NCBI GenBank assembly: GCA_950295325.1
Contig: OX485806.1
Location: 5,394,001-5,458,000, forward strand
Direction: 5' to 3'
DNA from: Polytrichum commune
Lineage: Eukaryota; Streptophyta; Polytrichopsida; Polytrichales; Polytrichaceae
DNA: 64,000 bases
The position numbers and the translations under genes were made by a program. The first letter of the stretch is position 1. The number at the start of each line of letters is the position of its first letter. The notes below the pieces were generated by a model. It had not been told where the DNA came from, made no database searches, and was given only the letters and a program-made list of their open reading frames with translations. Positions 23,597 to 64,000 of this stretch are shown piece by piece.

Positions 23597-24773
23597 CTCG
23601 CCTTGGTCGCGCCTTGACGACGTGGATGCCGTCACCGCGTGCGCTGCCCCACCTCTGTCACCGCCGCCTCCGACGACGACTTCAGCCTCAACCTGCTCAT
23701 GCAAAGGCTGACTGTCAGGCCTTTGTCCCAACCCAACCTCCGCATGCGCATCATGCATTGGTTCATCGACTGGGTTAGGAGTAGAGGTATCACCAGGCCC
23801 TTGCGGGCCTTCAACATCTAACATGGGCTCGTCCACCGGGGTCTGATCGGGGACGGGGTTTGGGTCGGCCGACCCAAACCCTGTTGCTTGGCGAGCGTCG
23901 CTCTGGGAAGCTGCAACGTCGGCACTGTTTGGGTCGGCCGACCCAAACATGTGGGGGTCGTCCCGCTGGTGGTGTGGGGGCAAGAGGATGGGAGGCCGGA
24001 GCGGCGGGGGTCCCAACGGGCTGGAAGCTCCGGGGACGCGCCAAAGGTTGGGGTCGTCCACCTGCTGGACAGGCGCGTAAGGGCGGGCGTGAGGCTGCAG
24101 CAAATGCGCGAAGCTGAAGGACTGCTGCGTAGCCGGCCGCGGGCGGATATCCTGTGGAGGGAAGCCTGCTGGCAAGTGAGGGAATGAACTCGGGGGAGCC
24201 ATCACCAATCCCTGCGCCAGCATGCCCTGGATCACTTGCGTGATCAGGTCCGCTTGGGACGGAGGTGGGGCCATCGCCCTTTGCCGCTCCTGCTCCAACA
24301 GGAGAGCCCTCAACTCCGCGACTTCGTTGCGGACCGAGGGCTCCTCGGCGGCGGCCTTCTGCAATCGGATGCGTTGCTCCTCGTCCCGGAGCATCTTCGC
24401 GTTGGCCTCCTCCACGGTGAGGACCTCGGGTTTCACCCTCACCATCCCGGCGAACGCTGTGGGGGAGGCAGGATCCGACCTCAGCCTCTTTGCGAGCTCC
24501 ATGTCGTCCTCGTCCTCGGAGCTTATGGCGATCGTCTCTTCCACCGCATAGTCGCTATATAATTTCTTCCCCTTCAGCATTCGCCGCTCCCTGAAGGTGG
24601 CCGTCGCGTCCCTCGAATACATGTCCTTCGCGTCGGCCACCGTGAGGACGGGCACTAGCTTGCTCTGCGGCGTGGCAGCCCGCATGGCCTTCTTCCGCTG
24701 AGGGGCCTCGGATTCTTGAGTGAATCCTGTGAAGACTTATAGGCTTATAGGAGTAGATGTTCAACCCAGACAT
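23597..24773 (-). pseudogene. Element A exon 3: disordered/coiled-coil linker, internally deleted
   Basis: Exon starts after GTGCAG with a residue run matching MLGLNIYSY of A' (here MSGLNIYSY) and ends at GAG|GTAATG. Compared with A' exon 3 (1485 nt) it is only 1177 nt. The segment between NIYSY and GFTQESKAPQRKKAM is missing and the frame shifts there, then reopens from the Met at 24685. The rest reads well: an acidic stretch SSEDEDDMELAKRL, a coiled coil rich in E/R/L (~EVAELRALLLEQERQRAM), Pro-rich DNA, and two peptides FGSADPN encoded by the element's own palindromes (23859-23878, 23928-23947). The first residues continue methyltransferase-like motif I from exon 2. Confidence 0.6.
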
Positions 24774-24856
24774 CTGCACAATCCAAATCAATAATATTAG
24801 GATCACAAATGAAGAATAAGCAAAAATAACACCCAAAACAAAACAAGAATACTTAG

Positions 24857-25062
24857 TTTGGGTCGAGCGACCCAAACTGTGCCTGCTCTAGTTTGGGTCG
24901 AACAACCCAAACTGTGCCTGCCCCTAGTTTGGGTCGAGCGACCCAAACTGTGCCTGCCCCTAGTTTGGGTCGAGCGACCCAAACCAAGCATGCCCTAGTT
25001 TGGGTCGAGCAACCCAAACCAAGCATGCCCATAGTTTGGGTCGCTCGACCCAAACCAGGCAT
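24857..25062. repeat. Palindrome array in element A intron 2
   Basis: Six copies of TTTGGGTCG-NN-CGACCCAAA at ~37-40-bp spacing, separated by TGTGCCTGCCCC or CAAGCATGCCC-like linkers. Centre dinucleotide AG (or CT on the other strand); two copies have a single mismatch (CAACCC). The array lies wholly inside the intron between the two parts of the methyltransferase-like motif. Confidence 0.9.
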
Positions 25063-25088
25063 ATAGATCGACGAGGTTAGTTTCTTAC

Positions 25089-26420
25089 CATTGCTGCAAA
25101 AATCGGTTTGGAGCCCCCGAAGACGTTGAAGATGAAGTCCCCCCTCTTCGTGAGGGTCCTCATCATCCGCAGGTAAAAATCCATCCGCAGCTCATCCGCG
25201 GGGTAGTTGGCGTACTTCGCCTCGTCGTACAAGCTCCTGCTGGTGCCCAACCCTTCTGGGACTTGGAAAAGCTTTTCCATCCGGGCTATAGGATGGTTTG
25301 GCACCTTCAGCAGCTCAGCTTTGTACACGAAGTACAAGCACAGCACACAGACTATCTTCGTCTTCTTGTCTTTCAATGAGCTGTACGCCCCCTCCGCCGG
25401 TGCAGCAACGTAATGAGATTTTGAGACGGCGTACTCTGGTTGCAATTTACGCACGATCTCGTACACCTGCTCCGCCCTCCTGTCCTCGACAATCCACAAC
25501 CAGACGTCGACCTCCCTGAATTTGGGGCTGGCGTAGTCCACAAACTTGGTGAAGAACGGCTCGTAAAACGGGGTGCTCATTGTCCCCTCGAATGAGGCTC
25601 CAGGAATGTTCCTGAAGTCTATCATTCCGAAGGGGAAGCGGTCCCCAGCTGCAGTCCTGATCGCCATCCTGGACTCAGAGCCCGGCCAACCTTGGATCTT
25701 TAGAGGTTCGAGGGAGACCAAGTTGAAGTGAGCTTCGCCCTCGAACCTGACGATCTTCTTCTCCTTTATAAAGTTGGAGAAGGCACGCGCGGAGTGTTCG
25801 GGAAGCGCCCGGTTCCTCCCCCCCTTCACAAACTTGGACCTGAGGAAGTCGTCTCCCGCCTCCCTCATGAGTGCCGCCATGGACGCACTAGTGAACTTGT
25901 ACTCGGCTTTGAATGCCCTCCAGTGCGCCTCGTCAACCTCTCCGTCCACGATGAGCTTCTTCTCGGGCACCAGCTTGTGCAGCTCTTGGACAATGGTCGT
26001 CTTCTTCTTCCTGTTCTCCGTCCATTCCTTCAAGGTGTAGCATGAAGGGACGAAGATCTTTGGCTTCGTGAAGACGATCTTTGGGTGAACCCAGCATCTC
26101 TTCGCCGTCGGCTCCACGTGGAGGATGTGGGACGCCGCCTTTCCCACCTCTGTCTCTGAGAGACCTTGAAGAGCTCTAAAGAACTCCCTCACTAGTGGCT
26201 TCATTTGCTTGAAGCGCGCAGTCTGGTTGTACAGAATACCGGTGTCGGGATCGATGAGGTCTCCCGTCTCGTGTTTTTCGAAGACAGTCTTCCATTTTGT
26301 CCACACGGAGTCGGACGCTGTGATCAAGTAGATTTCTCCTCTTAGCTCGTTATATTTTTTTTGCTTGTGGCTAGCGTTGTCAATAGAGGAGAATTTATTG
26401 ATCATCTGGTATTTGAAGTC
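25089..26420 (-). CDS. Element A exon 2: degenerate permuted N6/N4 DNA-methyltransferase-like domain
   Basis: 444 codons, phase 0 on both sides (acceptor TTCAG, donor ATG|GTAAGA). The C-terminal half resembles beta-class DNA methyltransferases in motif order: FGMIDFRNIPG stands where motif IV (DPPY) is expected, then VWLWIVEDRRAEQVYEIV, a Phe/Tyr-rich strand, then ELRMDFYLRMMRTLTKRGD and FNVFGGSKPIFAAM, which mirrors 'L...I......GD.VLDPF.GSGTT..AA..LG' of motif I, completed by MSGLN in exon 3. The catalytic Pro-Pro-Tyr and the motif-I Asp are not conserved, so the fold would be inactive as an enzyme but could still bind DNA. Same features in B (50866-52191). Assignment is by motif comparison only. 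Confidence 0.5.
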
Positions 26421-26492
26421 CTGAACATGAAGTCAAGAACATATGTTAGAGAACACATCATGAAAAAAATGGAACAGCAGTTTAAGACATGC

Positions 26493-26756
26493 CAATAGTT
26501 TGGGTCGATCGACCCAAACTTTAAATCTGATGAAGACTATAAGACATGCCAATAGTTTGGGTCGATCGACCCAAACTTTAAATCTGATGAAGACTATAAA
26601 ACATGCCAATAGTTTGGGTCGATCGACCCAAACTTTAAATCTGATGAAGACTATAAAACATGCCAATAGTTTGGGTCGATCGACCCAAACTACAAAACTT
26701 GGGAAGAAAATAAAACAATACAAGAGTTTGGGTCGATCGACCCAAACTTACTCACC
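26493..26756. repeat. Palindrome array in element A intron 1
   Basis: Five copies of AGTTTGGGTCG-AT-CGACCCAAACT, four of them 59 bp apart with the spacer TTAAATCTGATGAAGACTAT. All share centre AT. The rightmost copy begins a few nucleotides after the exon 1 splice donor. Confidence 0.9.
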
Positions 26757-28105
26757 TCCCATTTTGGGTTCTTGTCTTTTGCATTCTCCCTTTCCTTGGG
26801 CGGCCTGCCGTAGAACTCCCACACATCCCTCGAGGCCATTATATTCCTAATCCAGGATGCCTGATACGCCCTCTTTTTATTCCCCATGTTGAAAAACCTG
26901 GAGATGTCACTGAGGACGGTCTCGTTGTCCGACCAAACCACCAGTGCCTTCCATACCTTCAGCTTCTCCTTCTGGTTGTTGGGGTCGTCCCATTCAATCA
27001 TCAGCTGGATTTTTTTGGAGGCCTCTACACTGTGCTGGCCGTCAATCAGCCAGAAATCTCCTTTAGAAATCGCCGGCCACATATCAGCCGTAGGCATTCT
27101 TTTTAGCCCCTGGGGCATCACGACAATTGTCTACCTGTCGTCCTTGAACTGCCCTCCCAAGATTTGAGCGACCATCCAGTCGACATAGGCATCCTCCTTG
27201 GCTCGGACACACTTTTCAGGTGGCGCAAGGTGGCATTGTGCAATGTTCACCTCGAACTTGAAGTCCCTGCCCATGAAGAAGCAATGGAGGCATTTCGTCT
27301 CAAAATTGTCGTTGATTTTTTGAATTTCCCCAGCATCAACCTCTTGGCCAGGCTTGGGCATCCGCAACTCTGGCGAAACTGGCTCGGTGGTCATGACTGA
27401 TGACTCTCTTGCCCTTTTCGACGGGGTCGTCTGCCGACTTCCGGACGGGGTCGTCTGCCGGCTTCCTGAAGGAGTTGGCGTCTCGCTGTCAGCCGGAGTC
27501 GAGGTAGTGCTCGGTCTTCTAGAATCTGCCGGAACCGCCAGCGGAATCCTCACAGATTGGGGTCTGGAGGAACCTGCTCCTTCTTCTGTCTTGGCCTTCC
27601 GCCTGACAGGTTGTTGCGTTTTTGGTTTGCTTTGCAACGCTTTATTCAAAACCGTGATCGCTTGTTTCAGTTTTGTGAACCTGCTAGCGACCTTGGTATT
27701 CGATACAGTGCCATCTATGAAGATGGTCTCCGGTTTTATTATCTCCGGGTCAACGCACGTCTCCTTGGCGTATAGGGGGTCGAAAGCCTCGGAGAATTGG
27801 TGCATGAACATATGCACGTTCTGCACTGCGGAGTTCTCTAGAATAACGTCAACGTGCTCCCCGAGAGCTTGGACGGAAGCAACCTCCCATCCCGTCAGCG
27901 TTGCCCAGGTGTGTTGCTCGTGGGTCCCCACTTTCACCACGAACAAGAGCTTGTACTGGGAGGCTTTCACAACCTGAACGGACCACGCAAAAACAATCCC
28001 ATCCTTTGGGACGTATGAGTCGTCCTGTGGAGTTTCGTACTCCTCCCAAAGGTAGTCTGGGGCGAGCATGAACCACCTCTCTCCAGGTCTCTTTTTAGTG
28101 GCCAT
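26756..28105 (-). pseudogene. Element A exon 1: N-terminal domain plus ParB/DGQHR-like domain, with in-frame stop
   Basis: 450 codons from ATG at 28103-28105 to donor GAG|GTGAGT. A TTACAG acceptor directly abuts the ATG, so a leader intron precedes it. Residues ~1-110 form a domain with WEVASVQALGEHVDVIL (homologous in B); a Ser/Thr/Pro-rich linker follows, then CLHC...MGRDFKFEVN, and the ParB-like core FWLIDGQHSVEAS with KVWKALVVWSDNETV, GNKKRAYQASW and PPKERENAKD. ParB/DGQHR proteins use an Arg after Gln-His; here it is Ser. The frame carries one TAG (27131-27133) where the B copy has CAG (RQTV), a C-to-T change. This copy is therefore probably a pseudogene unless read through. Confidence 0.6.
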
Positions 28106-28496
28106 CTGTAAGTCCAGAAATAAAATTGTTAGTTTAGGTCGATCGACCCAAAGTTTTTCAACTTGGATTGAACATCAGTGCGAATTGAAGGGTGCTCTAC
28201 TGGCCATCATGAAGAGGTTTGGGTCGACCGACCCAAACCCAAGCCTCGAATAGCCTAATCTTATAAGAATTATTGGTAGAGTTCGGGTCTTAAGAATATG
28301 AATATATTGAATATTGTGTAGTGGTCAAATTATCCAACATGAGAGCAATTTTCGGTGACCTTCTAGAGCCGCGCTGGACGTATGTGGACATGCCAGCAAA
28401 TATCAGACGATTTCAAATTATAGCCATTTGAATATAATTTCTTGTTGATGGTGGGAAGGATGTTTATCTTGGGATATTGGATTTGTAGGTTGCAGA

Positions 28497-28802
28497 GTTT
28501 GGGTCGAGCGACCCAAACCAGCTGCAGAGTTTGGGTCGCTCGACCCAAACCAGCTGCATAGTTTCGGTCGAGCGACCCAAACCAGCTGCAGAGTTTGGGT
28601 CGAGTGACCCAAACCAGCTGCAGAGTTTGGGTCGAGCGACCCAAACCAGCTGCAGAGTTTGGGTCGAGCGACCCAAACCAGCTGCATAGTTTGGGTGGAG
28701 CGACCCAAACCAGCTGCAGAGTTTGGGTCGAGCGACCCAAACCGCCTGCAGGTTTTGGGTCGTTCGAACCCAACCAGCTGCAGAGTTTGGGTCGGTCGAC
28801 CC
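28497..28802. repeat. 32-bp tandem array of element A palindromes
   Basis: Ten or so units of AGTTTGGGTCGAGCGACCCAAAC + CAGCTGC at 32-bp spacing, centre AG or CT, with scattered mismatches. The spacer CAGCTG is itself a palindrome. The array lies in the presumed 5' leader of the ParB/MTase/HAD gene, just inside a TATA box. Confidence 0.9.
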
Positions 28803-28840
28803 AAACTAGCTGCCCAGTTAATTCTTTATGGGTTTGGGGT

Positions 28841-28850
28841 TTTATATAGA
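28841..28850 (-). promoter_or_regulatory. TATA box for the element A leftward gene
   Basis: Minus-strand TCTATATAAA immediately upstream of the 32-bp palindrome array and ~740 bp from the ATG at 28105. A leader intron ending TTACAG before the ATG would remove most of the gap. Confidence 0.45.
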
Positions 28851-28899
28851 GGTTTCGGGCGTCTACCGAAACCGTAGTGTTTCCATATTCACCCATAAT

Positions 28900-30010
28900 G
28901 TTTTACGCTGCATATACAATGCTTATACATTGTATATGCATGAAGACCCTAAAGGCTAAGAAGCAGGTTATGTTGAATGAGATAAGTTACCTTGATGCAA
29001 GCTCTACCAATCTGATGTTGTTTTGCGAATAGGTTTTGCGAATCTGATTCTTAGAATCTGATTACACCTGAACACTCAGATATCACTAACACTCACTAGA
29101 ATTCCACTCACTAGATTTCACAAACAACTCACAGACACTTCAAAACAACAAAAACACTCTGAAATCACTACAACGGCGCACTTTAAAACAAAAACACACT
29201 CCTAACCAACAAACACACTCTGAAATCACTCAATGCTCGTATTTTTAAACAAAACAACACTCCTAAACAACAAACACACTATGAAATCACTCAATGCGGA
29301 TACTTTTACACAAAAACACTACCCTACTACAATCACTCCTAAACCCTTACAAGAAGAAGAGAGAATGAGAGACGGCGAGAAGAATGAGAGAAGAGAGAAG
29401 GAGAGTATGAGAGAATGAGAGAATGAGTGTAAGTCGAAAGGCGCCGCTTGCAGTCCTAACCAACAAACACACTCTGAAATCACTCAATGCTTGTATTTTT
29501 AAACAAAACAACACTCCTAATCAACATACACACCCTGAAATCACTCAATGCGCATATTTCTACACAAAAACACTTCCCCAACCCCTAAACACACTCTACA
29601 ATCACTCCTAAACCCTTACAAGAAAAAGAGAGAATGAGAGAAGAGGGTTACAAGAATCAGAGAGGTGGAAAGGAATGAGAGAGAGAATGTGGGAAGCGGC
29701 GTTAGGCGGAGGCGCCGCTTCACGACAAGGTGAGAAATGAGGGAGAGAAAGGAGGGAGCTTGGCGCGGAGGGAGTTAAATAGACAAAGCGAAGGGTCGCC
29801 ATGGGACCCAATCTGGGCCATGGGAGCGCCCCGAGCCCATCTACGGCTCACAAGCCTCGCGGGCAGCCACCTTGCCATGTGTCAACACCTTATTGGTGAT
29901 GGTGGCTACCCGAGGCTTCTGGGGTGCACACTTGGCGCCTAGCGGCCACCCGGCCTCCTGCCCGCCAAAGCCCGGCCCCGGCCTTCTAAGCCGCTATCTA
30001 TAGCGGCTTA
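28900..30010. repeat. Low-complexity centre of element A
   Basis: 29090-29620 is built of imperfect repeats of ACAAACACACTCTGAAATCACT and GAGAGAATGAGAGA-like tracts. 29690-29990 turns GC-rich with GGCGCCGCTT and CGGCCACC motifs. Element B has an equivalent order (CTCTCAAGC repeats at 54640-54960, then a GC-rich block at 55010-55350). No gene seen. Confidence 0.6.
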
Positions 30011-30533
30011 GCCCAAAAATCGAAAAGCAACATAGCCTAAGGTATTGCACATAATTAACACCATCACCAACTCTGATTTTAATGGTGTTCAATTCAATGG
30101 TCCCGCGTTGGAATTGCTTACATCATAGAATGAATCCATTATTTGTTTTAGTATTTGAATAATGTAGTCATATGGAGTAAGATGAGAGCGATACAAAGTC
30201 TAAGAGGAGTATTTCATAAGTAAATTGCAATTCTCAATGCAATTGCACGGTGCAACAATTAAAATATGGTGACAATTTACATGGTCAAGGGTTTAGTGCT
30301 CTCTATTGTAATTTCTATAACCCAAGTTCGTAGAAGATAAGGCTCTAGCATACAATGGATATTACCCACCCAAGTAGCATTAAATTCAACATTTATATCA
30401 GTACATAGAAGTTGACATTTGAAGTACATGGGAGATACACAAAGATTACAAATTTATCTACTGCAACCCCATGGAGTTCAACATCATATGAAGCCATTTA
30501 AGCATTAAGCTTGATGTTCGATGATCCCTCCAA

Positions 30534-30573
30534 CCTAAACCCTAAACCCTAAACCCTAAACCCTAAACCCTAC
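30534..30573. repeat. Interstitial telomeric repeat (CCTAAAC)n
   Basis: Five to six tandem copies of the plant telomere unit CCCTAAA. An inverted, degenerate counterpart (CTAGGGTTTAGGGTTTATGGG) lies at about 32228-32248. Confidence 0.9.
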
Positions 30574-32600
30574 ACACCGCAAGCCTTAAATGAATGGCAC
30601 ATAAGGTTAAATGACAGGGCCTTAGTGCTTGTAGTTTCCAATACAAATGTATATTGTCTTGACAACATCCTAATCATATGTGCTCACGATCATGTCAACC
30701 AATATTAAGTTATAACAATGTCTGTCTAAAAAAAAGAGTATAATAACTTGATTATAGTATATATGATCTTCATACTAGATTTCAAATGGACTTCATGATA
30801 GTTTCAAACATCCTTGAAAGAGTGAACTAAAAAGTCCTATTCGTGATGGAATTCCCATTAATGCCTTTCACATAGGTTATCCATTGCCACACTTGTATGT
30901 TGGACAATGGATCAACGTTGTGTGCACACATTACAAACGTCACATGTTCTTTTAAAGCTTTTCTCATTTTATTGTTGCAAATTGAAAGTTGGCCAATTTA
31001 TTCAAATTTTTCATGAGATCAATTCCTTGTTTTCAATGTATAAGTCCTCATGTGAAAGTCTTCATAATGACATAAACTGTAATTATTGTATTTGGTGGCT
31101 TTGGCTATATGAAGTTTCATAATGTTCCCACATATATTGTCAAGATATTATTTGAAATAAACCATAATATTTGAGTCCAAGTAGAGTAATATCCTGGAAG
31201 TACATAATTTAATTTGTATGCAATGCATCAATGTGAAGTTGTGGAGGATGGGTTCTCAAAATCACTTATCAAATATCATTTTCTTCCCAATGGTGCATGT
31301 CATAGGCACATAAAATGAGACAGTCTACCCCCATCAACAATAATTTTAATTTTTTTGACAAATATTGTTATAGGATATTGGAAGATATATTGGAGATCTT
31401 TCTTTATCATTTTTTTTTCATATCCTTACTAACACTATATTCAAACATGTAACTTCAACATATTACCATAGATAATATTGAGTGTTTGAGTTTACATTTG
31501 ATGTTACTTACTTTCATAGTGGTATTAGTATTGAGTAGATGCGTTCGTATTTATTGTATCAAACTCTAAATATGTTATTTATTGTAGGGACACTACAACA
31601 CTACATTTTTTGTCAAACATTTTTTTAAACAAATAAAGTTAACTACATTTTTTTGACAGGTCAAATCACAAATAACTTAAGTTACAAAACCCAACTACAC
31701 AAAATATGATATCTAGTGTTTGATACCCTATATACAAGCGCATGCACTAAATATCAATAACCATATGAAAGTCAGTGACATAAAATGTAAACTCTCACAA
31801 TAAGTATCATCTATGGTAATATGTAGAATTTACATGTTTGCAATTAGTGTTAGGAAGGATGTGAAAAGAAAAAATTTACGTGAAAGTAGAAGGTAAGCGA
31901 CACATTTATGTGTAACAATAATTGTCAAAGATTTAAAAATTAATGTTGAGCATAGTAGAGTGGTAACAACACTAAATATAATGAAACACACACCCCATAT
32001 TTTGTGTAGTTATTTCATCACGGAATTAGCAATGTCATTTGATGGTTGGCGCCACGAAGAGCCACGAAGGCCACACATTAGTAAACTTGAAGTGAACTTC
32101 AAGATGGATTCAAATATCATTAATAGATTGAACTAAAACGCCACATTGGTAGTTAGTATCCCTTTAACAACGTCCACATACGTTCCTCATTGCCACACTT
32201 GCATGCGAGATAATAGAGCAATGTTCTAGGGTTTAGGGTTTATGGGAGACAAATAAATAATTTTATTCATCACGACAATGGCCTCAAGCCTTGGAAACCC
32301 TTTCATAATTGCAGCCTCCAAATGGCCCAAACCCCACCTAAATAGGTTTACACTTGAAAGCATTGAATGGAGTTAAAATATTGGTTAAAATATACCGTCA
32401 TGACACTTGAAAAAATTAATGTGGCCGCCACCCTTCCTCCCAACGGCGTATGTCATATCCACAAAAGACAAAAAAAAGAAGATTAAATATCATAGACTAA
32501 GTCATATGACGGCTGGGGTATCAGAGGGGCATTGATAGATGCGCATTTTCCACTATAAACAAAAAACGGGGAATTATGTTAGGAGGTTTTGAAATAATCA
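30574..32600. other. AT-rich central spacer of element A
   Basis: No gene. Contains a MITE (31695-32009) and duplicated modules ending ...CATTGCCACACTTG (about 30890 and 32195). Confidence 0.5.
31695..32009. mobile_element. MITE, ~315 bp
   Basis: Ends CTACACAAAATATGATAT and ATTTTGTGTAG with internal CACTAAATAT motifs. It aligns along its length with 55722-56069 in element B (shared CAAGCGCATG/CAAACGCATA, GGTAATATGT, GGTAACAACACTAAAT). Non-coding; a CACTA-like end motif suggests a non-autonomous CACTA derivative. Confidence 0.6.
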
Positions 32601-32614
32601 AAATATGAGAACAA

Positions 32615-32668
32615 GGCGGGAAAGGCATCCAATGAGGAAGTCCGAGAAACGGAGGTGGATAGTATAAA
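32615..32668 (+). promoter_or_regulatory. Promoter of element A DUF7869 gene (E2F-like site and TATA)
   Basis: GGCGGGAA at 32615-32622, the canonical E2F motif, lies 41 bp upstream of TATAAA (32663-32668). A C-rich start region and a GAG-rich leader follow. The element B gene has GGCGGGAA (57393-57400) just before TTTAAATA. Transcription in S phase is possible. Confidence 0.4.
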
Positions 32669-32920
32669 GGGACGCACCCCCCAAAATTCAGTCCTTTTTT
32701 GCTCTTCTCCCACTCTTGAATTCGTGGAGAGAACTCTTAGTCGGAGCTATACTTCAAGGTTCGTGCATGCTTCCGTTCATTAGCACTTATCCACAACATG
32801 CAAGTTCATGAGCACCTATCCACAGCATGGAAGCCCACCGTGAACTTTGCAATGAGCTCAAAATCAACACATTTCGGATTATCCGCCGGATTTTGAGGGT
32901 TTTAGGGTGACTCTTATCAG

Positions 32921-34290
32921 GTTTGGGTCGGTCGACCCAAACCCCTCCGCTAGTGTGGGCGGGTTTCAGCCTGACCCTGATCATCTGAGGAGTCCATCTT
33001 GCCCCTCAAGGTTTGGGTCGGTCGACCCAAACCTTTACTCTCATGAGGCAGTTACTAGGGTGGACACGGAGTCCATCCTGCCCCTCAATGTTTGGGTCGG
33101 TCGACCCAAACCCACCCTCACATGGGGCAAGTACTAGGGTGCGCATGGAGCCCATGCTGCCCCTCAATGTTTGGGTCGGTCGACCCAAACCTATCCCCTC
33201 GTGAGGCAGGATCTAGAGTGGACAAGGAGCCCATCCTGGCCCTCAAGGTTTGGGTCGGTCGACCCAAACCTATCCCCTCGTGAGGCAGGGTCTAGAGTGG
33301 ACAAGGAGCCCATCCTGGCCCTCAAGGTTTGGGTCGGTCGACCCAAACCTATACCCTCATGAGGCAGGTACTAGGGTGGACACGGAGTCCATCTTGCCCC
33401 TCAAGGTTTGGGTCGGTCGACCCAAACCCACCCTCACATGGGGCAGGTACTAGGGTGCACACTGAGCCCATCCTGCCCCTCAATGTTTGGGTCGGTCGAC
33501 CCAAACCTATACTCTCATGAGGCAGGTACTAGGATGGACACGGAGTCCATCCTGCCCCTCAAGGTTTGGGTCGGTCGACCCAAACCTATACCCTCATGAG
33601 GCAGGTACTAGGGTGGACACGGAGTCCATCCTACCCCTGAAGGTTTGGGTCGGTCGACCCAAACCCACCTTCACATGAGGCAGGTACTAGGGTGCACACG
33701 GAGCCCATCTTGTCCCTGAAGGTTTGGGTCGGTCGACCCAAACCCACCTTCACATGAGGCAGGTGCTAGGGTGCACACGGAGCCCATCCTGCCCCTGAAG
33801 GTTTGGGTCGGTCGACCCAAACCCACCTTCACATGAGGCAGGTACTAGGGTGCACACGGAGCCCATCCTGCCCCTGAAGGTTTGGGTCGGTCGACCCAAA
33901 CCCACCTTCACATGAGGCAGGTACTAGGGTGCACACGGAGCCCATCCTGCCCCTGAAGGTTTGGGTCGGTCGACCCAAACCCACCCCCACGTGAGGCAGG
34001 TACTAGGGTGGACTTTGAGCCCTTCCTGCCCTATAAGGTTTGGGTCGGTCGACCCAAACCTTATCCCACAGTGGGCATGTACTAGGTTTGACCCATCCCA
34101 GTGCCCTTACATAATTTGGGACGGTCTACCCAATCCATCCCCGCTGTGTGGGTGCTCTCTGTGATGAGCCTGAACCCATCTTGCGAAAACGTTTGGGTCG
34201 CTCGACCCAATTTATCCCCACTGTTTGGATGGAATCTGGATGACCATGATCCCATCGTGCCACAAGGTTTGGGTAGGTCGACCCAAACCT
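32921..34290. repeat. 79-bp tandem array of element A palindromes
   Basis: Fourteen units at an exact 79-bp period from 33010 to 34037, plus a first copy 89 bp earlier and three degenerate copies to 34290. Each unit is GTTTGGGTCG-GT-CGACCCAAAC followed by CTCATGAGGCAGGTACTAGGG and GGAG(T/C)CCATCCTGCCCCTCAAG. All centres are GT. The array fills the presumed leader intron of the downstream DUF7869 gene, between the promoter and the acceptor at 34497. Confidence 0.92.
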
Positions 34291-34501
34291 AGACCCACCG
34301 TGTGGATGGGCTCTAAATGATAGTGTGTCCACTGGCCAACCCAAACCTTTACAGAGCCAATGGCATAGCAGTCATACGAACATGTATGAACACTGAGTAT
34401 TTGCAATATTTTTTATATAAGATGGTTTTTGTATTATTCGATTGGAACCTACAATTTTTGTGGTTTCTTGATAAGGTTCAATGTTCATGTGTGTAGGCAG
34501 A

Positions 34502-49210: not shown

Positions 49211-49238
49211 ACATTTGGCATTCTCAGAGATGAGTTAC

Positions 49239-52280: not shown

Positions 52281-52302
52281 TTTACGAACGTTCGTTCGTA
52301 AA
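52281..52302. promoter_or_regulatory. Element B palindrome abutting splice donor
   Basis: TTTACGAACG-TT-CGTTCGTAAA ends within five nucleotides of the exon 1 donor GTGAGT (52302-52307). The A copy has its own palindrome at the equivalent place. Confidence 0.85.
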
Positions 52303-52307
52303 CTCAC

Positions 52308-53600: not shown

Positions 53601-53624
53601 CTGCAGAGCACATAAACATTTAGT

Positions 53625-54200: not shown

Positions 54201-54990
54201 TGGTCATCTGGGATTAGGAAATGGTATATTTATTTATGTACATATATATCCGTACATATACGTATAAATGTTGGTATGAATGTTGCAATCTGCCATTGTT
54301 CATGATCCTGCAACTCGTGATCAGATTGATGAAACACAAGTGAAAAATGGAATCAGAACAAAATTGCGAGTCAGTGATTGATAGTTCAGAATGAAGAGGA
54401 AAGTGTTATTTCATACAAAACATGACATACCTCATAATGCAGAAAACAAATCACAAGGAATTCATCAAACAACAATTTCAGATTGTGAAGGAGTGATTTG
54501 TAAAGGAAACATGTACTCACATTGAATTGTTGCACACAAATCCTCCTGCCTTCACTTTGTCACACTCTCAAGCCTTCACAACTTATATGCAAATCCTACA
54601 CAAACCTTGATGTACACAACTCACAAGCTTCACAAAACTCAAGCTTTCTGAAGCTCTCAAGCTCTCAAGCTCTCAACCTTTCTGAAACTCTCAACCTCTC
54701 AACCTCAAACTCAAGCTCTCAAGCTTTCTAAAACTCAAGCTCTCAAGCTTTCTAAAACTCAAGCTCTCAAGCTTTCTAAAACTCTAAACCTCTCAAGCTT
54801 TCTAAAACTCTCTACCTCTCAATCTTTCTAAAACTCAAGCTCTCAAGCTTTCTAAAACTCTAAACCTCTCAAGCTTTCTATAACTCTCAACCTCTCAAGT
54901 TTTCTATAACTCTCAACCTCTCAACCTTTCCTACTCTCAAGCTTTCCTATTCTCAAGGTTCTGACAACACAACAAAACAACATTCACAAT
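54200..54990. repeat. CTCTCAAGCTTTCTAAAA-type low-complexity repeat
   Basis: From ~54640 to 54960 a drifting 18-25-bp unit made of CTCTCAAGCT and TTCTAAAACT. No gene. Equivalent in position to the ACACACTCTGAAATCACT repeat of A. Confidence 0.7.
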
Positions 54991-55146
54991 GAGGCTCTAA
55001 AATTGGCAAGGGCTTCGCCGCACCTAAGAGCTCCTCTCCTCCTCTGCTCCAAATGACAAATGAGGAGGAGAGAGAGGGGCGCGGGGAGGTAGCCGGCGCC
55101 GCTAGGGTTTCCAAGCGGCGGCCACGTGGCTAGTGGCCACTGGCGA

Positions 55147-55345
55147 GGGCTGGGATGGGGGAGGGGGATGGGGATGTGGGATGGGGAGGGGGAGGGGGAG
55201 GGGGATGGGGATGGGGATGGGGATGGGGAATGGGAATGGGGATGGGAAGGGGAGGGGATGGGGAGGGGATGGGATGAGGATGGGATGGGAGAAGGGGAGG
55301 GGGAGGGGATGGGGATGAGGGGATACCATGGGGACATGGAGGGAT
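55147..55345 (+). repeat. (GGGGAT)n / (GGGGAGGG)n G-rich tract
   Basis: Nearly 200 bp with dozens of G-runs of 3-5 on the plus strand, including uninterrupted GGGGATGGGGATGGGGATGG. It can form G-quadruplexes. The reading frames over it are only Gly/Met/Glu or Pro/Ser/His low complexity. Confidence 0.8.
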
Positions 55346-55721
55346 GAGGGTTCAGGAAAAATGAAATAGGAGATGGGAGGAGCTTAGTTTAGGGACATAA
55401 ATTTGACTTTCCGTATCCCCTTAGTACCTCGACATATGGATTCCTTGTAAACATATTTTAGAAAAGTATGTTCAGATAATTTGTATTTAACAATTCATGT
55501 CATTTAGTAGGTTTTCGATGAAGAATCCACCCCCAAGATGCAAATGTCGTTTTCATGAACGAGACATCTTTAAAGTTCTTCAATGGTTCCTCAAATAAAT
55601 ATTACATATATAAATGACTCAATTTAAATTGTGGAGAGGGGCTATCTGATTCTCCACAAGAGGTGGATGAAAATTCAATTTTCAATACGATGTCATTAAT
55701 TTCATGAGGTTTTAGCTTGAA

Positions 55722-56069
55722 CCACCCTTAATATGATATTTAGTGTTAGATACTCTAAATACAAACGCATAGTACACTAAATATCACTAACCCTATGAAG
55801 GTAACTACTATTCATTGCGAACTCAAACACTTAATGTCAACTATAATGGTAATATGTGGATGTCGCATGCACAAATTTTGTGTAAGGAAATTAATATGAA
55901 AAAAACAATTAACAATGATAAAAGCATAAAGGACATGGTAGTAGGAAATGTGGTGGCCCATTTAATATGTCCAACACTAATTATCAAAGAATTGAAATTT
56001 AGTGTTGACCATGATAGCGTAACAACACTATATTATACAATCAAACACTAAATATCATATTTAGTGTAG
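55722..56069. mobile_element. MITE, ~348 bp
   Basis: Left end ACCACCCTTAATATGATATT, right end CACTAAATATCATATTTAG-TGTAG. Homologous with 31695-32009. Ends contain the internal palindrome AAATATCATATTT-like. Confidence 0.6.
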
Positions 56070-56264
56070 TGTATTTTAGCCATGTGGTCGCATGTTTTGC
56101 TAGTAGTATCAATTGATAGTATGAGCTTCCCATAAATTAAGTTAGTGCGATATGGATTATTTAGGAGTCGATATTGTTTGTGTATATAATGCATTGAAGT
56201 AACGATCTAAACCCTAAGCCCGCAAACCACATAGACAACTCTTTCACAAACTCTATACCCTAAC

Positions 56265-56297
56265 CCCAAACCCCAAACCCTAAACCCTAAACCCTAC
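56265..56297. repeat. Interstitial telomeric repeat
   Basis: CCCTAACCCCAAACCCC followed by three CCCTAAA units. Degenerate at the left. Confidence 0.8.
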
Positions 56298-57392
56298 ATC
56301 TTTTTATCTTACCAACCTTTCTTATATATGGCCATGTTGTGGTCTATGCGCATCATGTCAAAATGGTCTACCAATGTTGGTTCGATTGGAAATTGCTTTA
56401 TTTGGGTCATAGCAACTATAATAATCTAGACTCATGCCAATAATTGTCATTTTGATATAAAACATTGGTTTAGGGGGTGAAGAGTGAATTTTGAAATGCT
56501 AGCCCTTTCACCTTAATAGTTTTGAGTGCAATTTGATCACACAATACACACTTAGTCTTATTATAACATGAATGGTATAAGACTTCAACTTAAATCAACA
56601 GTTAAGCTATGGTCATGCACATACTTCTTGTTGCAAATAATACAAATATATAATTGTAAGTGCATACTATTGTATACACCATTCCAAATTCGTTATCCAT
56701 TTCCACACCATGGTGGACCTAAAGTGAATTTCCAATAGGACGTCAAGTCATTTAATTAGGTGTCAACTTGAACTAACGATCGAATACTAGTGCATTAAAC
56801 TTTAATTTTCACCAATGATGAATTGTAACAATGATTCATATTAATATGGGCCGATGTTTGGTGAGCCTCCAGTTCCAAATGTCCTCAATCTACCTAGCAC
56901 AAGCCATTATGGATTAAGCGACTTTTTATTGGTATTCATGCACTTGGTGACCATATTACAAGCATTTTTTTTATGTGAATCATATGATACCTACAATTTT
57001 AGGGGATTCCACAATATGTTCTTAGCCACTCTTACCTCATTGTGTGTGTGAATATATATATCACTTAGACCTTCATCAATTCACTTGGACTTCACACCTT
57101 AGTCGCAAATAATTTAATACTCAATGTTAACCCATCAACCTATATATATATAATATAATAACCCATATATAAAATAGTAAACTAATAAACTAGTAAAATA
57201 TACATATATAGACATATAAATATAGACATATAGACATATAGACATATTTTCGTGCGACCTTGGTAACAACTAAGGTGTGCGACGGATTTATAGATTTATA
57301 ATATGTTGCGTGCACGCAAGACATGTTCCATACATAATGCTATTTATATATTGCGCATGGATGGAATGGCATATTGTTAGGTCAAAGTAGGC

Positions 57393-57414
57393 GGCGGGAA
57401 TCCGCTTTTTAAAT
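57393..57414 (+). promoter_or_regulatory. Putative promoter of element B DUF7869 gene
   Basis: GGCGGGAA (E2F-like) at 57393-57400 directly before TTTAAATA. Upstream of the palindrome-rich leader, as in A. Confidence 0.35.
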
Positions 57415-57619
57415 AGCATCCAAGGGATTTTGAACCATCGGGGGGAAGGTACTTAAAGCTCTTCCCCCCCACATAAGAGCTCTTTTCTGCGGCACATCCA
57501 AGTGTGCGCTCCACAGACCTGACTGGAACGCGCTCAAACCATTTTCTTGTGCGCCAACCCTACACCACCCAGGTCCACTACAGACTGCACATACCCGTAT
57601 ATACCGCCGCAAATACCGG

Positions 57620-58700
57620 ACGTTTACGAACGCACGTTCGTAAACGTGAGTTGGTAGCACATGTACAATAGGTACATCGATATGATATGAGTTGTTTACG
57701 AACGTGCGTTCGTAAGTTGATCGCAACCGTACTCGACATTGAGTTCCTTATAGACAGAACTAGGCACGAAAATTGTGTCGATGATATACGAACGTACGTT
57801 CGTATATCTACCTTCAAGACCCAGACGCGCATGAGTTCCCGTGTAACCGTTTTCTCCAACGGAACATCTGGTGATGGGATATTTACGAACGTGCGTTCGT
57901 AAATATCACCTGGGATTATTTTTCAAGAATCCAAAAAACATTCCTTAATTTATACACTTCAGTGCATTGGCCACGTTAACAATATGCAAGTTAAATACGA
58001 ACGAGCGTTCGTATTTCTCACTACCGTTTGTGTCCGCGGAGAATTATGTTAGTTGAATTTTACGAACGCACGTTCGTAAATACCACATGTCCACCGTCCA
58101 CGCATCCACCAACAGGCCTGTTGACGCAAGCATGTGTAGAGGACTACACCGTGTTTATGATAGATACGAACGCTCGTTCGTATCTATGCAATCATGATTT
58201 AGTGATAGATTTCGACTGTCATTTTCCACTGGTTATTGGATAACATGTTTCCCTGTAACGTGGCTATAGATACCTCTATTCGGACGTGTCCAATCATTTT
58301 TTCCAAACACTGTCGCGGCTGTGACATACAGATGATCGGTCGTTTGCATCCGCCCCTAAGTTTCGGCTGGAACTTACGAACGATCGTTCGTAAACACTCG
58401 CCCATCAAATATGATGCTTACTGCATGTGGATAAAGTGGCAAGTATATTTTAGGTGCTCTTATAATATGTCCCATTTAGATTTTACTGTATATTGGGTTG
58501 ATATTTTCGTCCGCACGTTCGTGAATATATGTGCTTGTGTTGTCCCTTGGTGGTGGACAACCCTTCCAATGTTTTATTGGCGACTCGATCCAAAGCCCTT
58601 CACGGGTAATATATATCGGAATGGGGTTCCGTTGTGCAGGGACGTCTGAGTCCCGTGTAGGATTTGCATGTCATCGAGCTGTTGTCGAACGCACGTTCGT
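57620..58700. repeat. Element B palindromes in the transposase leader region
   Basis: About nine copies (near 57624, 57697, 57787, 57882, 57993, 58059, 58163, 58375, 58684) with centres CA, TG, TA, AG, CT and AT, plus one degenerate at 58507. Unlike the strict 79-bp array of A, spacing is irregular (65-210 bp). The region ends at the acceptor GTTTAG before the DUF7869 start. Confidence 0.9.
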
Positions 58701-58844
58701 CTTCATATGTGAGGTCCCGCAACGGTGTGGCGAGAGTTGTTTGTGATTTTTGAGCCATATATGTAGGCATATCTCGTATCCACTTTTGTATGCATTGCGG
58801 TGGTTGTTGTGTTGGTCATTTTATTGGTGGTTTGTTTAGGTTGG

Positions 58845-61800
58845 ATGGCGATGCACGTTGGATATAGTTCATTGGAGTTGTCCACAAAAGCTTCCTCTTC
58901 CGATGATGACTGTAAACTATCTTCGCCATCGGCGGGTAGTCATGGCATGGCAAATGCCATGGGTGGGTTTGTGGATGCATCCTCCCACGAATCATTTGAA
59001 GCGCACGAACAATCTATACGTTCCGGGGATGACAATGATGACATTCCGTTATGTGCCGGTTTCGGTAGGGAGCAATGGGTGGGCCTTGATGTTGTTCTTT
59101 TCAACGATGTTGGTGTCCCCGTGGCAGATGGCATATGTAGAAACTCTGATCCCCGTGATTGTGTTGATGCCAACCCCCTTGGTCCCGATGATGTGGGTGT
59201 GTGCATCTTGAATTCTTTGCTTCCGCTTGACGTCCCGGTGACATGGAGATTTTCCTTGCGTCGATGGCCTCTTTGTCGGGTTCTCCATGACGGAGTAAGC
59301 TTGTTGGACCATGAGCGCCGCCATAATCAAACGCAATTAGCTTTGTTGACCAAAATACGTCCTCGCAAAGGCCTACGCAGATATGATTCTAACCGTGTGC
59401 CTCGTGGAGATAAGGAACGTCGACGGGATCGCATATTGGGAGACGAAACTATCCGTCTTGTGTCCGCCAAAGACTGTTGCGAGAGGAAATGTTGCCAATT
59501 TTTCCCGTGGGAGAAAATTAAGTCCCTACGTCAAGAGATGTGGCTTGCGGATTTCCGTATGAGATCGGCAAAGAAACTCGAGGTCCACAGAAATGTCCAC
59601 ATTGACACCCATGGGCGTAAGGTGGTCACACTTGAGAATGTGGAAGTGTGTTGTACTGCGTGGTATACCATCCACGCCGTGTCAAAGTCTGACTTTTATA
59701 GGTTTCAAAAATATTCATTGTTCGGTCGCCGCTCTCGATTTCATGGCAATTCGGGCACAAAGAAACCTAGGGAGGCTACACTCCAAGCCTCCGCGACACT
59801 CTCCACCATCATAGTCCCATTGGCCGATGCAATGCCCCACAAGACGAGGACATTGTCGTCAGGGGAGAAAGTTGTACAAATGGTATTGCCCACGGGTACA
59901 AAATGGAAGAACATATTAACGGACATCAATGAAGTGGGTCGCATAGCGGGATGTGGGCCTATTTCTTTGTCCAAGTTGAGTGTGATTAAAAACCAACAGT
60001 TTGCCGAATACATTTTGAAGAGACCTGGGGACAAGTTCGCTAGATGTATGACGTGTGAAAAATACAAAGGTCTTCGAGACGCCCACCCCATAGGCACCGA
60101 ATCCCACACTAGACACCAAGCAAAATATATTGAACATGTCAACAACCAAGAGGCTCACCGTCAAAATTACTACAAGAACCGTGCTCTATCCATAATGAGG
60201 CCTACAGAGGTTCTAACAATCATCCATGATAAAATGGACCACGCCAAGACCGCATGCCCTTGTTATGCACGCAAAATTAAGGCCACGGATGGTCTCTTCA
60301 AGTTGCCCGTATCTGTCACAGGTTTGTATTGAATCACAAATATGTATTCAAATTCTCTCAAATTTTACTGGGTGTGTTTGCCAAATGTCCAATTTCATAC
60401 CTCCGTTTGGAGTTGTCGTTGTTATTGTTGTTGTTCAAGCATCGTTTGTTTTTTTTCGCAGGGATGATTGCCCACGGCCATGGAGACGTAAAGTATGCCC
60501 ATTATGGGTTGGATTTTTACCCTGGCGATGCTAACCACACAGTGGGTTCATTTGCAAAACTCTTGCGCGATCTGGAGAAGCCACCGTTACATTCATCACA
60601 TGCACTTTTTGATGGTTGTGGAACGACACCCCTTTACGAAGCAGTGCTTGCGGGAAAGGAGGTTTGTATGTCGTCATTGCCAGAACCACCGGGAGAACCT
60701 ATTTGTGCAAAACCATTGCCTCCAACTCTTCACGTTCAACTTGATCATTGCGCGAAAGACAACAAATGTCGATACGTATTTTATTTTTGGTCATTGCTCG
60801 TGGCGAAAGGAATCTTCAAGGAGGTGTTTGTGTCGTTTTTGATGGTGGGACATACACACGACGACATTGATGCATCATTCGGACGGTGGAGCATGAAGTT
60901 GCATGAAGAAGATTTTCCAACCATACCTCTTCTTATGAAATCGTATATGGATTTGGACCATATGCCAGTAATTCCGCACATGATTGAGGAAGTACCAGAT
61001 TTCAAGGCCTTCATCAAGTCATACATGTTGAAGGGAGGGGACCGTTTGGTGGGGCATACCAAAGCACAACAATTCCGATTCTATATAAGGGATGATGGTC
61101 TCCCAGCCATGCAATTCAAGCTTTTGTGCACATCTCCTAATTGGGGACCGGATGATGGTATACTCGTATGGCGTCAAGACAATGATGGGAAATGTTTGCT
61201 CCCGGATGGGGATCCAAAGCCTTGCAAACCCGACCCCATGAGGAATGGGCCGGAAATCATCAAAGGCATATCCGGATTCATTGAATATTGGAAAGAGTTG
61301 TGTGAGGAGGACATCACTAGACGTGTTAGAGATACTCATGAACCTTTGATTGCGTATTGGGATCGCATTCGCTCGGCCCTAATGACACTTGGTGGCGACA
61401 CCCGTACAACTTTAACACAAGGATTTTGGCCACAAAGTCATTTGACGGTTGTCGAGTCCGACACCATGGTTTTTAGCAATGGAGACGTTCGTGAAGAGTT
61501 CGCAATGGACGAGCATTACGTTGGCCCTGCCCGCAAACGACCGGCACCGTCGTTTCGTGTAGGTGTTGATTGCCATGAAGGTTATTTGGTCCTTGTACGA
61601 GCAGGGGATGAGGAACATCCCAAGCCAATTTGGTTGGTGAAAGCATTGTCTTCACCCAATTTTGTTCGAACTAGCCCCAACTTTCGTCAGATTGAGGTGG
61701 AATATTGTCGTCCAAGTACTAAAGACCAGAACGTGCTACGCACTTATTTAGGTTGGGACACCAAAAAGAATTTTAAGTGGACAGTGGACTCAGCGTACAC

Positions 61801-61981
61801 ACCGGTTTGGATAAACACGGATACTATACTTTGTGCTTGGAAGCCGCGCAAAGGTTCCAAAACAGAAACAATGACCATCCCCCAAAAACATATAGATTTT
61901 GCCAAAGACAACTTGGCACGTATTGCAGCTGCGGAAAATGACGCCGAGAATGGATATGAAGCGGAAGACGGAGATGTGTAA
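58845..61981 (+). CDS. DUF7869-type probable DDE transposase of element B
   Basis: Exons 58845-60321 and 60462-61981 (phase 1, GTTTGT...TCGCAG), 998 aa, uninterrupted. The ATG follows a GTTTAG acceptor; the apparent upstream extension is intron. Same domains as the A protein: acidic Ser-rich start, KDCCERKCCQFF, VCCTAWYTIHAVSKSDFY, CMTCEKYK, then IHDKMDHAKTA, QLDHCAKDNKCRYV and GHTHDDIDASFGRWSMKL. The catalytic-core segments are nearly identical to A whereas the N-terminus differs, so selection acts on the protein. The C-terminus is acidic. Likely nuclear, acting on the AACACTATATTCG ends. Confidence 0.78.
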
Positions 61982-62356
61982 ACATAACATAGGTGGGAGT
62001 TCATGGCGAAAAACATGGACGCTTAGTAGACTTGGTTTTTAATAGACTTCATGGACTTGTCACACTCCATTGTGGTATACGTTTGGGATGTGCCATCCAA
62101 ATTCATAAGAGCCTTACTTATGGGATGCGCACCCCAAACTCTATAATGACATAAACCATTTGTTTTTTTAGATTCGATTGTTATTTTCCACATGGAACTC
62201 ACGTTTGCATTTTAATTGACATTCTCTATTTTTAGAAATAAGAATATTCTTTACGTGCAACTTTTTAAATCGTTATATTCTTGATGTTCCCAATATTTCG
62301 TATGCCCACAATATTGGCATCCCAAACTATGGGCAGATTTTATTTTGAGACTTTCG
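61982..62356. other. Right subterminal region of element B
   Basis: Non-coding; contains GTTTGGGATGTGCCATCCAAA (62081-62101), TGGGATGCGCACCCCAAAC and GGCATCCCAAAC, related half-sites that may be transposase-binding sites. Confidence 0.45.
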
Positions 62357-62384
62357 AAAGTCTTCGATTAACGAATATAGTGTT

Positions 62385-64000
62385 TTATATGGCTGTCCAA
62401 TATATATGGGGTTCGGGACCGAAACCTTCCTTGGGAGGTCCCTAGGTGGGCTCATTTCAACTTAGAAACTAACACTTTCAAGCCTCGGCTATACTTTGAG
62501 ATTTCAAATGCTCACTTTATATGTGTGTAGTTGGCCTCATTTCAGGTTAGAATGTAGTACTTGAAGATGGGCTATAGGCTAAGATTTCAGGTTGTCACAT
62601 TATATGGCTCTAATGGTTAGAGGTTAATTACAAAGCAACATTATCAATTTGGGTCAAATGATACTTACTTTTATCTACAATGTGTTGACTCTTTGGTAGG
62701 TGCATGTTATATCTTCGCCACCTTCGACACAAGTATCGGAGGGAAAGCTTCCAGATATGGATATACTAGAGGACGAGCATGAGGTAGAAGAAGAGTCTCT
62801 TGGAGATGATGCTCATTTTCTAGGTAGTGAGGATGAGATTCGGACCAGGCAAAAAATTAACTTTGTGGCCACGATTACAAGTTTGAGATTTCAACCTAAT
62901 AGTTCTTCGCGATTTAATATTCCGTTGTGCAGATTGATGGCAATGCCAATGGTACGGCCAACTCTGGCATCCAATCTTGCTAAGCTCGAGCAAGAATTTG
63001 TCCACGGATACAGGGAAAGCGCTTCGGTCTTTTATGTTACAATCACCAATGAAGACGAAAATACCCATGAAGTGACGGAAGCTGATAAAGCTTCTTGGGG
63101 TCCTATTTGGGATGCCAAAAACGCCATTTTCAACTCATTTCTCCTCTCGGATCCAGCGTTGGCTCCATTCACAAATTTGATATTTTTTGTGTGCGACGGC
63201 AACCATAGGCGTCAAGCTTGGTTAAATCACATTGACAGACTTCACCGAACTGATGAGGATTGGCATTATTTGGTGGATTCAATTCTCCTTGATACAAAGG
63301 GGAAAAATGGACTTGTTATGCAAGTCATGCACAACATAAACAAGTATGTTCATTCTCTTTTGATATATAATCTTTCATTGAAAATTCAATATGATTTCAC
63401 TTTCTTTCTTACTACGATAATCTAATATCTTCCATTTGATTTTTGTATTTAGACATACAGAGGACTCTCATGTGAAGACCAACATTGTCTATACCCTCTT
63501 CAAGGTTCAGAAGTATGGTCTTATGTCAATTGAACAATTCAATGACATTTTGAGTCCAACTGACCTAAAAAATGGCAAGAAGTCTCAGAAGACTTGGTAT
63601 TCGTTACCATTACATGTATTTACAAATTTCATATTTCAGGTGCATCACGGAATAGTCCTAATGATTTTGTAAAATATGTGAACTTTGATGGTGGGCTATA
63701 GGTTAAGATTTCAGGTTCTCACATTTTGTGGATGTCCAATATATGGGGTTCGGGACCGAACCCCAATTAGAAGGTCCCTAAGTAGCCTCATTTCAGGTTA
63801 GAATCTAACACTTTGAAGCCTCGGCTCTAGTTTGATTTTTCACATGCTCACTTTATGTTGGTTTAGTTACCTTCATTTCAGGTTAGAATGTAAATCTTTG
63901 AAAATGGCCTATAGGCTTAGATTTCAGGGTCTCATTTTATGTGGGTGTCCAATATATGGGTTTCGGGACCGAAACCTTCCTTTGGAGGTCTAGAAGGTCA
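62385..64000. repeat. Element C continues: array modules around a gene
   Basis: Same modules as 43400-46361, with palindromes near 62410, 63750 and 63960. The gene start at 62700 lies between them. The array runs off the window. Confidence 0.75.
62700..63596 (+). CDS. Element C ParB/DGNHR-like protein, 5' part
   Basis: Exons 62700-63343 and 63453-63596 (GTATGT...TTTAG, phase 2), entering after GGTAG and leaving at TTG|GTATTC. The N-terminal ~60 residues are acidic; TSLRFQPNSSSRFNIPLCRLMAMPMV follows; the core is FFVCDGNHRRQAW, then YLVDSILLDTKGKNGLVMQVMHNINKHTEDSH. It aligns with the ParB-like exon of A and B (DGQHS, WKALVVWSDN, FNMGNKKR) and like them its exon is followed by DNA with the element's own palindrome. 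Unlike A and B it keeps Arg after Asn-His, the usual ParB/DGQHR ligand residue. Downstream exons are outside the window. Confidence 0.55.

Follow-up and report, generated by a model that had tools for sequence, protein, structure and literature searches.

The closest described counterpart of the system considered here is VANC anti-silencing in the VANDAL transposons of Arabidopsis (PMC5735166, PMC10398659). In the portions of the VANC account drawn on here, the motifs lie in introns and upstream regions and form tandem repeats that differ between relatives, the transposase is much more conserved, the VANC21 motif is the nine-base word YAGTATTAY, and VANC proteins bear DUF1985/DUF287 (PMC5735166). 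For En/Spm-type elements, the sections drawn on report that TNPA binds repeated motifs differing between families and that the transposases stay conserved (PMC2613891); in bacteria, a fusion of ParB with an adenine methylase is known from an account likewise used in part (PMC5512222). Here, we describe transposon-like elements of Polytrichum commune, named A, B and C, which adjoin one another in a 64,000-nucleotide stretch (hereafter, the window; contig OX485806.1, C4:5394001-5458000 of a 407.8 Mb genome in 64 contigs) and each of which carries many copies of its own palindromic word. In our judgment, the reading with the best prospects, at a rough probability of 0.55, is that dimeric proteins encoded by the elements read these words and keep their own family expressed or un-silenced, in a manner resembling VANC.

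Palindromic words and their placement

The window contains element A1 (20592..38097, about 17.5 kb), the truncated A copy A' (38098..43399, plus strand), which starts inside a methyltransferase-like exon and ends at an intact terminus, and element B (46362..62384, about 16 kb), which is inserted into C and divides it into a left piece (43400..46361, plus strand) and a right piece (62385..64000, plus strand) that continues past the window into locus L069. With both strands searched, the A word TTTGGGTCG-NN-CGACCCAAA has 51 places in the window at up to 3 mismatches (0.02 expected), the B word TTACGAACG-NN-CGTTCGTAA has 28 at the same threshold (0.02 expected), and the C word GG[GT]TTCGG-NN-CCGAA[AC]CC has 16 (0.04 expected), all 16 exact in a search that allowed 2 mismatches. 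A1 holds 45 A words, A' 6 A words, B 28 B words and the two C pieces 13 (in tandem arrays) and 3 C words; no A, B or C word crosses into another element of the window, the A and B words are unrelated to each other, and the 20,591 bases before A1 contain none of these words. A preliminary description of this DNA had claimed for each element many copies of a private palindrome, dozens in A and about 30 in B, and in the window this is borne out. Its arm length of 8-9 bases is too short for A, whose arms are effectively 10 bases, GTTTGGGTCG, giving the full form GTTTGGGTCG-NN-CGACCCAAAC; and the A sites, which it had beginning at 23859, start at 23555, a lone 3-mismatch site at 21241 apart.

The same words recur throughout the genome. 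In counts that are complete over all contigs, with the same patterns read backwards as controls, the A word occurs at 9731 places (control 0), the B pattern (TACGAACG, 0-8 bases, CGTTCGTA) at 4682 (control 1) and the C word at 552 (control 1); two further words, taken up below, occur at 1310 places (C2, TGTCTCGG-NN-CCGAGACA; control 0) and at 502 (D, CTGTGCGTTAACGCACAG; control 0). Spacing between the arms is rigid: the 9731 places with exact A arms at a two-base gap rise only to 9735 when 0-8 bases are allowed, and 100 of 100 B places among the matches listed are 18 bases long, which leaves two bases between the arms. The two-base centre, described earlier as free in all elements, takes 11 forms over 67 distinct sites in A and 9 over 64 in B, and so is indeed free in these two; in C (12 distinct sites), it is restricted to GA/TC. 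Family specificity extends to copies elsewhere. Of 30 A copies fetched, whose methyltransferase-like exons are 100 to 93% identical, every one holds the A word and none the B word; of 30 B copies fetched, with 100 down to 83% identity in that exon, every one holds the B word and none the A word.

In A1 and B alike, the words lie around a leftward, multi-exon gene and before a rightward transposase candidate, within compartments whose borders were drawn by hand from open reading frames (ORFs) and from where A-B similarity ends; the introns of the leftward gene were placed at the points where that similarity stops. On the promoter side of the leftward gene are 12 words in A1 (28133..28805, 10 of these forming a period-32 array) and 8 in B (53632..54197); intron 2 holds 5 (26499..26746, an array of period 57) and 2 (52224..52301), respectively, and intron 3 holds 6 (24857..25054, an array of period 36) and 3 (50672..50845). 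Two words lie inside the last coding exon of each (23859 and 23928 in A1; 49248..49655 in B), the 3' side has 1 in A1 (23555, the A words of these last two compartments spanning 23555..23947) and 5 in B (48749..49209), and the promoter side of the transposase candidate has 18 in A1 (32922..34287, arrays of periods 79 and 77) and 8 in B (57624..58393). Neither element has words in the ParB-like, N-terminal or methyltransferase-like exons, in the central 3-4 kb, in the transposase candidate or at the right end. Occupation of the same functional places, as first proposed, thus holds for six compartments, the others being empty apart from the 3-mismatch site at 21241 in the left terminal part of A1. 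Since the words are unrelated, the placement has been kept while the letters were replaced.

The arms are also better kept than their surroundings. Variation was scored as departure from the majority base of each column, excluding the reference row, in alignments of 30 A copies (11 sites) and 30 B copies (7 sites); for sites that were picked because they are intact in the reference, and with some alignment columns left uncertain by the tandem arrays, the arms vary by 3.8% in A and 3.7% in B, compared with 15.2 and 6.3% for the centres, 9.9 and 7.9% for the ten-base flanks, 7.5 and 6.9% for the rest of the fetched sequence, coding parts included, apart from the methyltransferase-like exon, and 2.9 and 3.6% for that exon itself. 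Random placements gave values as low as those of the arms in 3 of 5000 trials for A and 8 of 5000 for B, and CpG bases are less variable within the arms than elsewhere (4.9 vs 9.5% in A; 5.6 vs 8.5% in B). Because the words are rigid, symmetric and kept better than their surroundings, the proposal that a dimeric protein reads them is well supported by the sequence comparison.

Element genes and candidate readers

The leftward gene of A, all on the minus strand, comprises an N-terminal exon that runs into a ParB-like domain (27131..28105), a candidate for the reader; a ParB-like exon with the motif IDGQHSVEAS (26690..27121); a methyltransferase-like exon, so labelled from our reading of the order of its motifs, which are degenerate (25077..26405); and an acidic, proline-rich last coding exon (23585..24685). 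Its counterpart in B (49224..53681, minus strand, by ORF borders) has the N-terminal exon at 52998-53681, the ParB-like exon at 52266-52964, the methyltransferase-like exon at 50749-52269 and the last exon at 49224-50726. The leftward ORFs probably form one transcript. Element C contributes a ParB-like exon with the motif VCDGNHRRQA (62700..63425, plus strand). The plus-strand transposase candidates of A (34481..37566) and B (58800..61981) each consist of two ORFs, the second of which matches DUF7869 above cut-off (3e-40 in A, 3.6e-38 in B); Pfam lists this domain as of unknown function, and the structure of the elements suggests that the protein is their transposase. No DUF7869 match was found in five C ORFs scanned.

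A and B have common termini (AACACTATATTCG / CGAATATAGTGTT; the terminal 13-mer occurs at 776 + 807 places genome-wide, control 3 + 10), and their transposase candidates are 65% and 63% identical in the two ORFs. Identity falls to 53% in the ParB-like exon, 37% in the methyltransferase-like exon, 28% over part of the last exon (with the A' copy compared) and 25% in the N-terminal exon, the fastest part. Because the transposase candidate and the termini are conserved, that protein is unlikely to be the reader of unrelated words; judged by rate of change, the best candidate would be the N-terminal or the methyltransferase-like part of the leftward protein. The reader may be element-encoded, as the preliminary description held together with its being dimeric; the dimer itself is supported by the symmetry, the rigid two-base gap and the conservation of the arms.

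The labels ParB-like and methyltransferase-like are provisional and come from short motifs and matches below cut-off. Pfam gave no ParB match in the leftward and ParB-like exons scanned; the DGQHR domain (TIGR03187) matched a B ParB-like copy at an E-value of 0.22, far below cut-off, and the motif DG[QN]H can be seen. By hhalign, the C ParB-like exon matches those of A and B at an E-value of 0.073, which is not significant. The methyltransferase-like exon of A has no Pfam match and no related PDB chain, that of B likewise none, and PDB profile searches returned nothing related (best E-values 0.063 and 0.051). For the A N-terminal exon, the libraries gave as top match phrog_15511 (E-value 0.0024), a family of unknown function, and the match falls in the linker of the exon.

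Several features lie apart from the words. A phosphatase-like gene of the Pfam NIF family is present in A (22269..22964, minus strand, 2.5e-13), A' (41145-41939, 5.8e-13) and, as a piece, B (48166-48528, 3.8e-6); the A gene reads LDLNGV at the position where a DxDxT-type motif is expected and is possibly inactive. Insertion of B is marked by a 4-base target duplication, TTAT, at 46358-46361 and 62385-62388. At A1, the left terminus abuts an NB-ARC gene and the right terminus abuts A' inside the methyltransferase-like exon (38097/38098); because no matching target duplication occurs at its borders (TAAC / AGAA), the A1 junction was rearranged. Subterminal repeats GTTTGGATTGCCCTACCTAAACC, distinct from the palindromes, stand at the A1 left end (20592-21300) and the A' right end (42700-43399), with none by this pattern at the A1 right end, and two similar GTTTGGGATG pieces stand at the B right end. 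Telomere-like CCCTAAA runs occur at 30534-30572 and 56248-56296, in the central AT-rich parts of A1 and B. Left of A1, a protein kinase ORF and, after it, an NB-ARC ORF (17871-20613, cut by the A1 left end) give the locus a plant-like setting, kinase-NB-ARC genes being typical of mosses.

Words and ParB-like lineages in classes C and D

Kinship between word and protein was judged by co-location of words with ParB-like matches on chromosome C1, for the few families that are readable and over the listed places, which cover the start of that chromosome. A genome search with the C ParB-like exon gave 150 scored matches among 1236 first-look candidates. Within the covered range, C words lie within 5 kb of 3 of 3 ParB-like matches at least 89% identical to the query and near none of 20 matches at or below 76%. 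A 73% relative, L071, carries instead the C2 word in the form TGTCTCGG-GA-CCGAGACA, which departs from C by a symmetric change in both arms (GGTTTCGG vs TGTCTCGG), and the C2 word surrounds 3 of the 8 C-class matches (63, 67 and 72%) in its own covered C1 range. Six short C-class relatives were read as stretches of 400 bases each. Beyond L071, L070 (78%) keeps only the core TTCGG-GA-CCGAA, L074 (41%) carries a single C2-like site, mismatched at one base, AGTCTCGG-TT-CCAAGACT, and the 400-base stretches of L072 (65%), L073 (41%) and L075 (61%) contain no C-type palindrome, L073 showing another, imperfect one, GGGTGTCGT-TT-ACGGCACCC. These sequence comparisons support the view that, in class C, the word tracks the lineage of the ParB-like protein and not that of the transposase, and the A-B comparison is consistent with it.

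A further class, D, departs from such simple co-divergence. At the D locus (C1 461-480 kb), A words and eight D-type palindromes accompany an ORF resembling the C ParB-like exon (E-value 7e-4). At least two ParB-like matches, at C7:29634 kb and C5:18467 kb, are common to the C and D searches, with 39-40% identity to C and 81-84% to D. On C1 below 18.4 Mb, the D word lies at most 6 kb upstream of 8 of 8 D-type ParB matches and near none of 8 C-type matches, and 43 of 50 D words among the matches listed sit at most 6 kb upstream of D-type ParB matches. An A half-site joined to D flank, CGACCCAAACTGTCGGC, occurs at 24 places in 16 clusters; a D-type ParB ORF follows 272-784 bases downstream of 22 of the places and 15 of the clusters, and the exceptional cluster is inside the D locus; since CGACCCAAACTGTCGGC was derived from C1, the independent part of this result is the 14 of 14 clusters on other chromosomes, where the half-site with its flank is what is seen. 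Full exact A words stand beside two D ORFs (C1:478315 and C1:2160274) and make up 14 of the first 100 A words listed. The A word therefore belongs to two classes, A and D, and D elements have two words, the A word standing 0.3-0.8 kb before the ParB-like exon alongside their own. Privacy of the palindromes, claimed at the outset, accordingly holds in the window and in the 60 fetched A and B copies and fails genome-wide; simple co-divergence of word and ParB-like protein does not account for D, with its own word plus the A word. On sequence grounds, the sharing between A and D would call for module exchange, hitch-hiking or a reader supplied by the host.

Two observations concern the D locus itself. 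Thirteen C2 words with centre TA lie at C1:468609-471945, perhaps within a further nested element; elsewhere, the C2 centre is TC at one other place listed with letters and GA in L071. In L003 (2090-2300, minus strand), the sequence CTCPNFKEMATKAIGKRGQWANCKHLYYLF resembles, in our own reading, a SWIM zinc finger; Pfam returned nothing for the 60-residue L003 piece, which is without the first cysteines.

A VANC-like reading and its alternatives

In the reading we favor, each family would consist of large DNA transposons encoding, next to a conserved transposase, a fast-evolving DNA-binding protein, whose source is the oppositely transcribed multi-exon gene with its ParB-like and methyltransferase-like parts. 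At both promoters and in the introns, a dimer of this protein would bind the palindrome of its family, each arm serving as one half-site and the two-base gap being fixed; much as VANC acts on VANDAL transposons, this binding would keep copies of the family expressed or un-silenced. The identity of the reader and the activating or anti-silencing outcome are inferred.

A number of observations weigh against this proposal. At the level of single sites, of the two A sites in the last coding exon, one varies at least as much in its arms as in its flanks (14.2% vs 13.1%) and the other somewhat less (10.4% vs 17.1%); two B sites near the leftward promoter vary by about 10% in their arms (9.2% and 10.2% vs flanks of 16.9% and 10.5%); and variation at the B centre does not exceed that of the surrounding sequence (6.3 vs 6.9%). 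Among the proteins, the leftward exons scanned show no recognised DNA-binding domain in the libraries searched. Among the lineages, the other 5 of the 8 C-class matches (61 to 73%) have no C, C2 or D word nearby; and D elements, which are distantly related to C, contain the A word, whereas B, the nearer relative of A, is without it. When the D sequence read (L001, L003, L006 and L008) was compared with proteins of A, B and C, with the palindromes masked, the only noteworthy matches were of C type (C ParB E-value 0.002; best A match 0.46), such that in these parts the D ParB-like protein is not detectably related to that of A.

The palindromes might instead serve transposition, as sites of a TnpA-like protein that aids synapsis and excision in the manner of En/Spm-type elements. 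The pairing of a conserved transposase candidate with an unconserved motif recurs here, but the terminal compartments hold no words except the one 3-mismatch A1 site, the words are not subterminal, and A has separate subterminal repeats (GTTTGGATTGCCC...) that are not the palindrome; we therefore regard this role as unlikely. In another alternative, the reader would be a family of host proteins, such as a silencing or activating factor that changes rapidly, and the element classes would converge on or exchange host words; the sharing of the A word by A and D, whose ParB-like proteins are not detectably related, speaks for it. Such a reader fits poorly with the existence of several words that are unrelated to one another and go with particular element lineages, in C and D with a ParB-like subfamily, and with the absence of words from 20.6 kb of other window sequence, and it strikes us as slightly less probable again.

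We give less weight still to a self-mark, in which the methyltransferase-like part would methylate the word and the element would be recognised as self or protected. The motif order (our own reading) and weak matches of a C exon to PF01555 (E-value 0.024, 15 bits vs a cut-off of 26.7) and phrog_3008 (E-value 0.0054) speak for it. Yet DFRN/DFRG stands where the methyltransferase motif DPPY is expected and GGSK in place of GxG, so the motifs look degenerate; the methyltransferase-like exons of A and B found no library match; and 18 to 20 specified bases far exceed the usual methyltransferase sites. Least probable of all is that the words act structurally, as hairpins or small-RNA sources, or merely spread by slippage. 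Many copies do lie in tandem arrays, which are self-amplifying, but hairpins have no need of exactly two bases, dispersed B copies with different flanks keep the word, and variation is lower in the arms than in the ten-base flanks. The hairpin or RNA form of this idea was rejected on the two-base centre, a loop too small for a hairpin; Rfam gave no match at gathering scores. For the self-mark there is also the bacterial precedent of ParB-adenine methylase fusion (PMC5512222). Bce_0392, named there, has the same order of a ParB-like and then a methyltransferase-like part; unlike those fusions, the library matches here fall below cut-off and any biochemical role is putative.

Comparison with the known transposon systems favors the VANC-like reading. 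With VANC and the VANDALs, as far as the cited sections describe them, the elements have in common family-specific words in introns and promoters, tandem repeats, differences between families and a diverging protein partner; they differ in that the words are arm-NN-arm palindromes and not the nine-base YAGTATTAY. DUF1985/DUF287 had no match in Pfam scans of the A, B and C leftward and ParB-like exons (small ORFs at 21.3-22.1 and 46.8-47.7 kb lay outside the scan). VANDALs, moreover, are Mutator-like, and the elements here have DUF7869 and, in B, a 4-base target duplication. Because the protein domains do not match, the reader would be VANC-like in its working without being a VANC. With En/Spm (CACTA) elements, in the sections drawn on, the likeness lies in similar size (20.5 kb for Tgmt*), in the conserved transposase and in a second, poorly conserved protein with a repeated word (PMC2613891). 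Membership in CACTA was rejected: the A and B candidates have DUF7869 and no Transposase_21, the tips of B, the one element judged, are AACACTATATTCG with a TTAT duplication and not CACTA with a 3-base duplication, and the words stand at promoters and introns, not subterminally. Parts of a true CACTA transposon do lie in the window, at 3647-8373 (Transposase_21 5.1e-61, DUF4218 3.4e-30, DUF4216 9e-9), and contain none of the five palindromes searched. Subterminal, TNPA-like use would thus fit worse than VANC-like placement. In the open-licence papers covered, we found no description of such an anti-silencing family or palindrome system.

More tentatively, and with less confidence than in the VANC-like reading, the words might be tradable addresses in a communication network among transposons, built on a family of dimeric anti-silencing proteins. 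Such a network would combine private words, change of word within a lineage and borrowing between lineages, with D either hitch-hiking on the A reader in trans or carrying a reader module exchanged between the classes. How transposons escape silencing without waking other elements is an open question with one well-studied answer, that of VANC. The genome of P. commune offers several families with readable words, in hundreds to thousands of copies each; natural variants, such as the symmetric change between C and C2 and the sharing between A and D, could serve the study of how dimeric DNA-binding specificity changes, and the words might find use as orthogonal chromatin switches.

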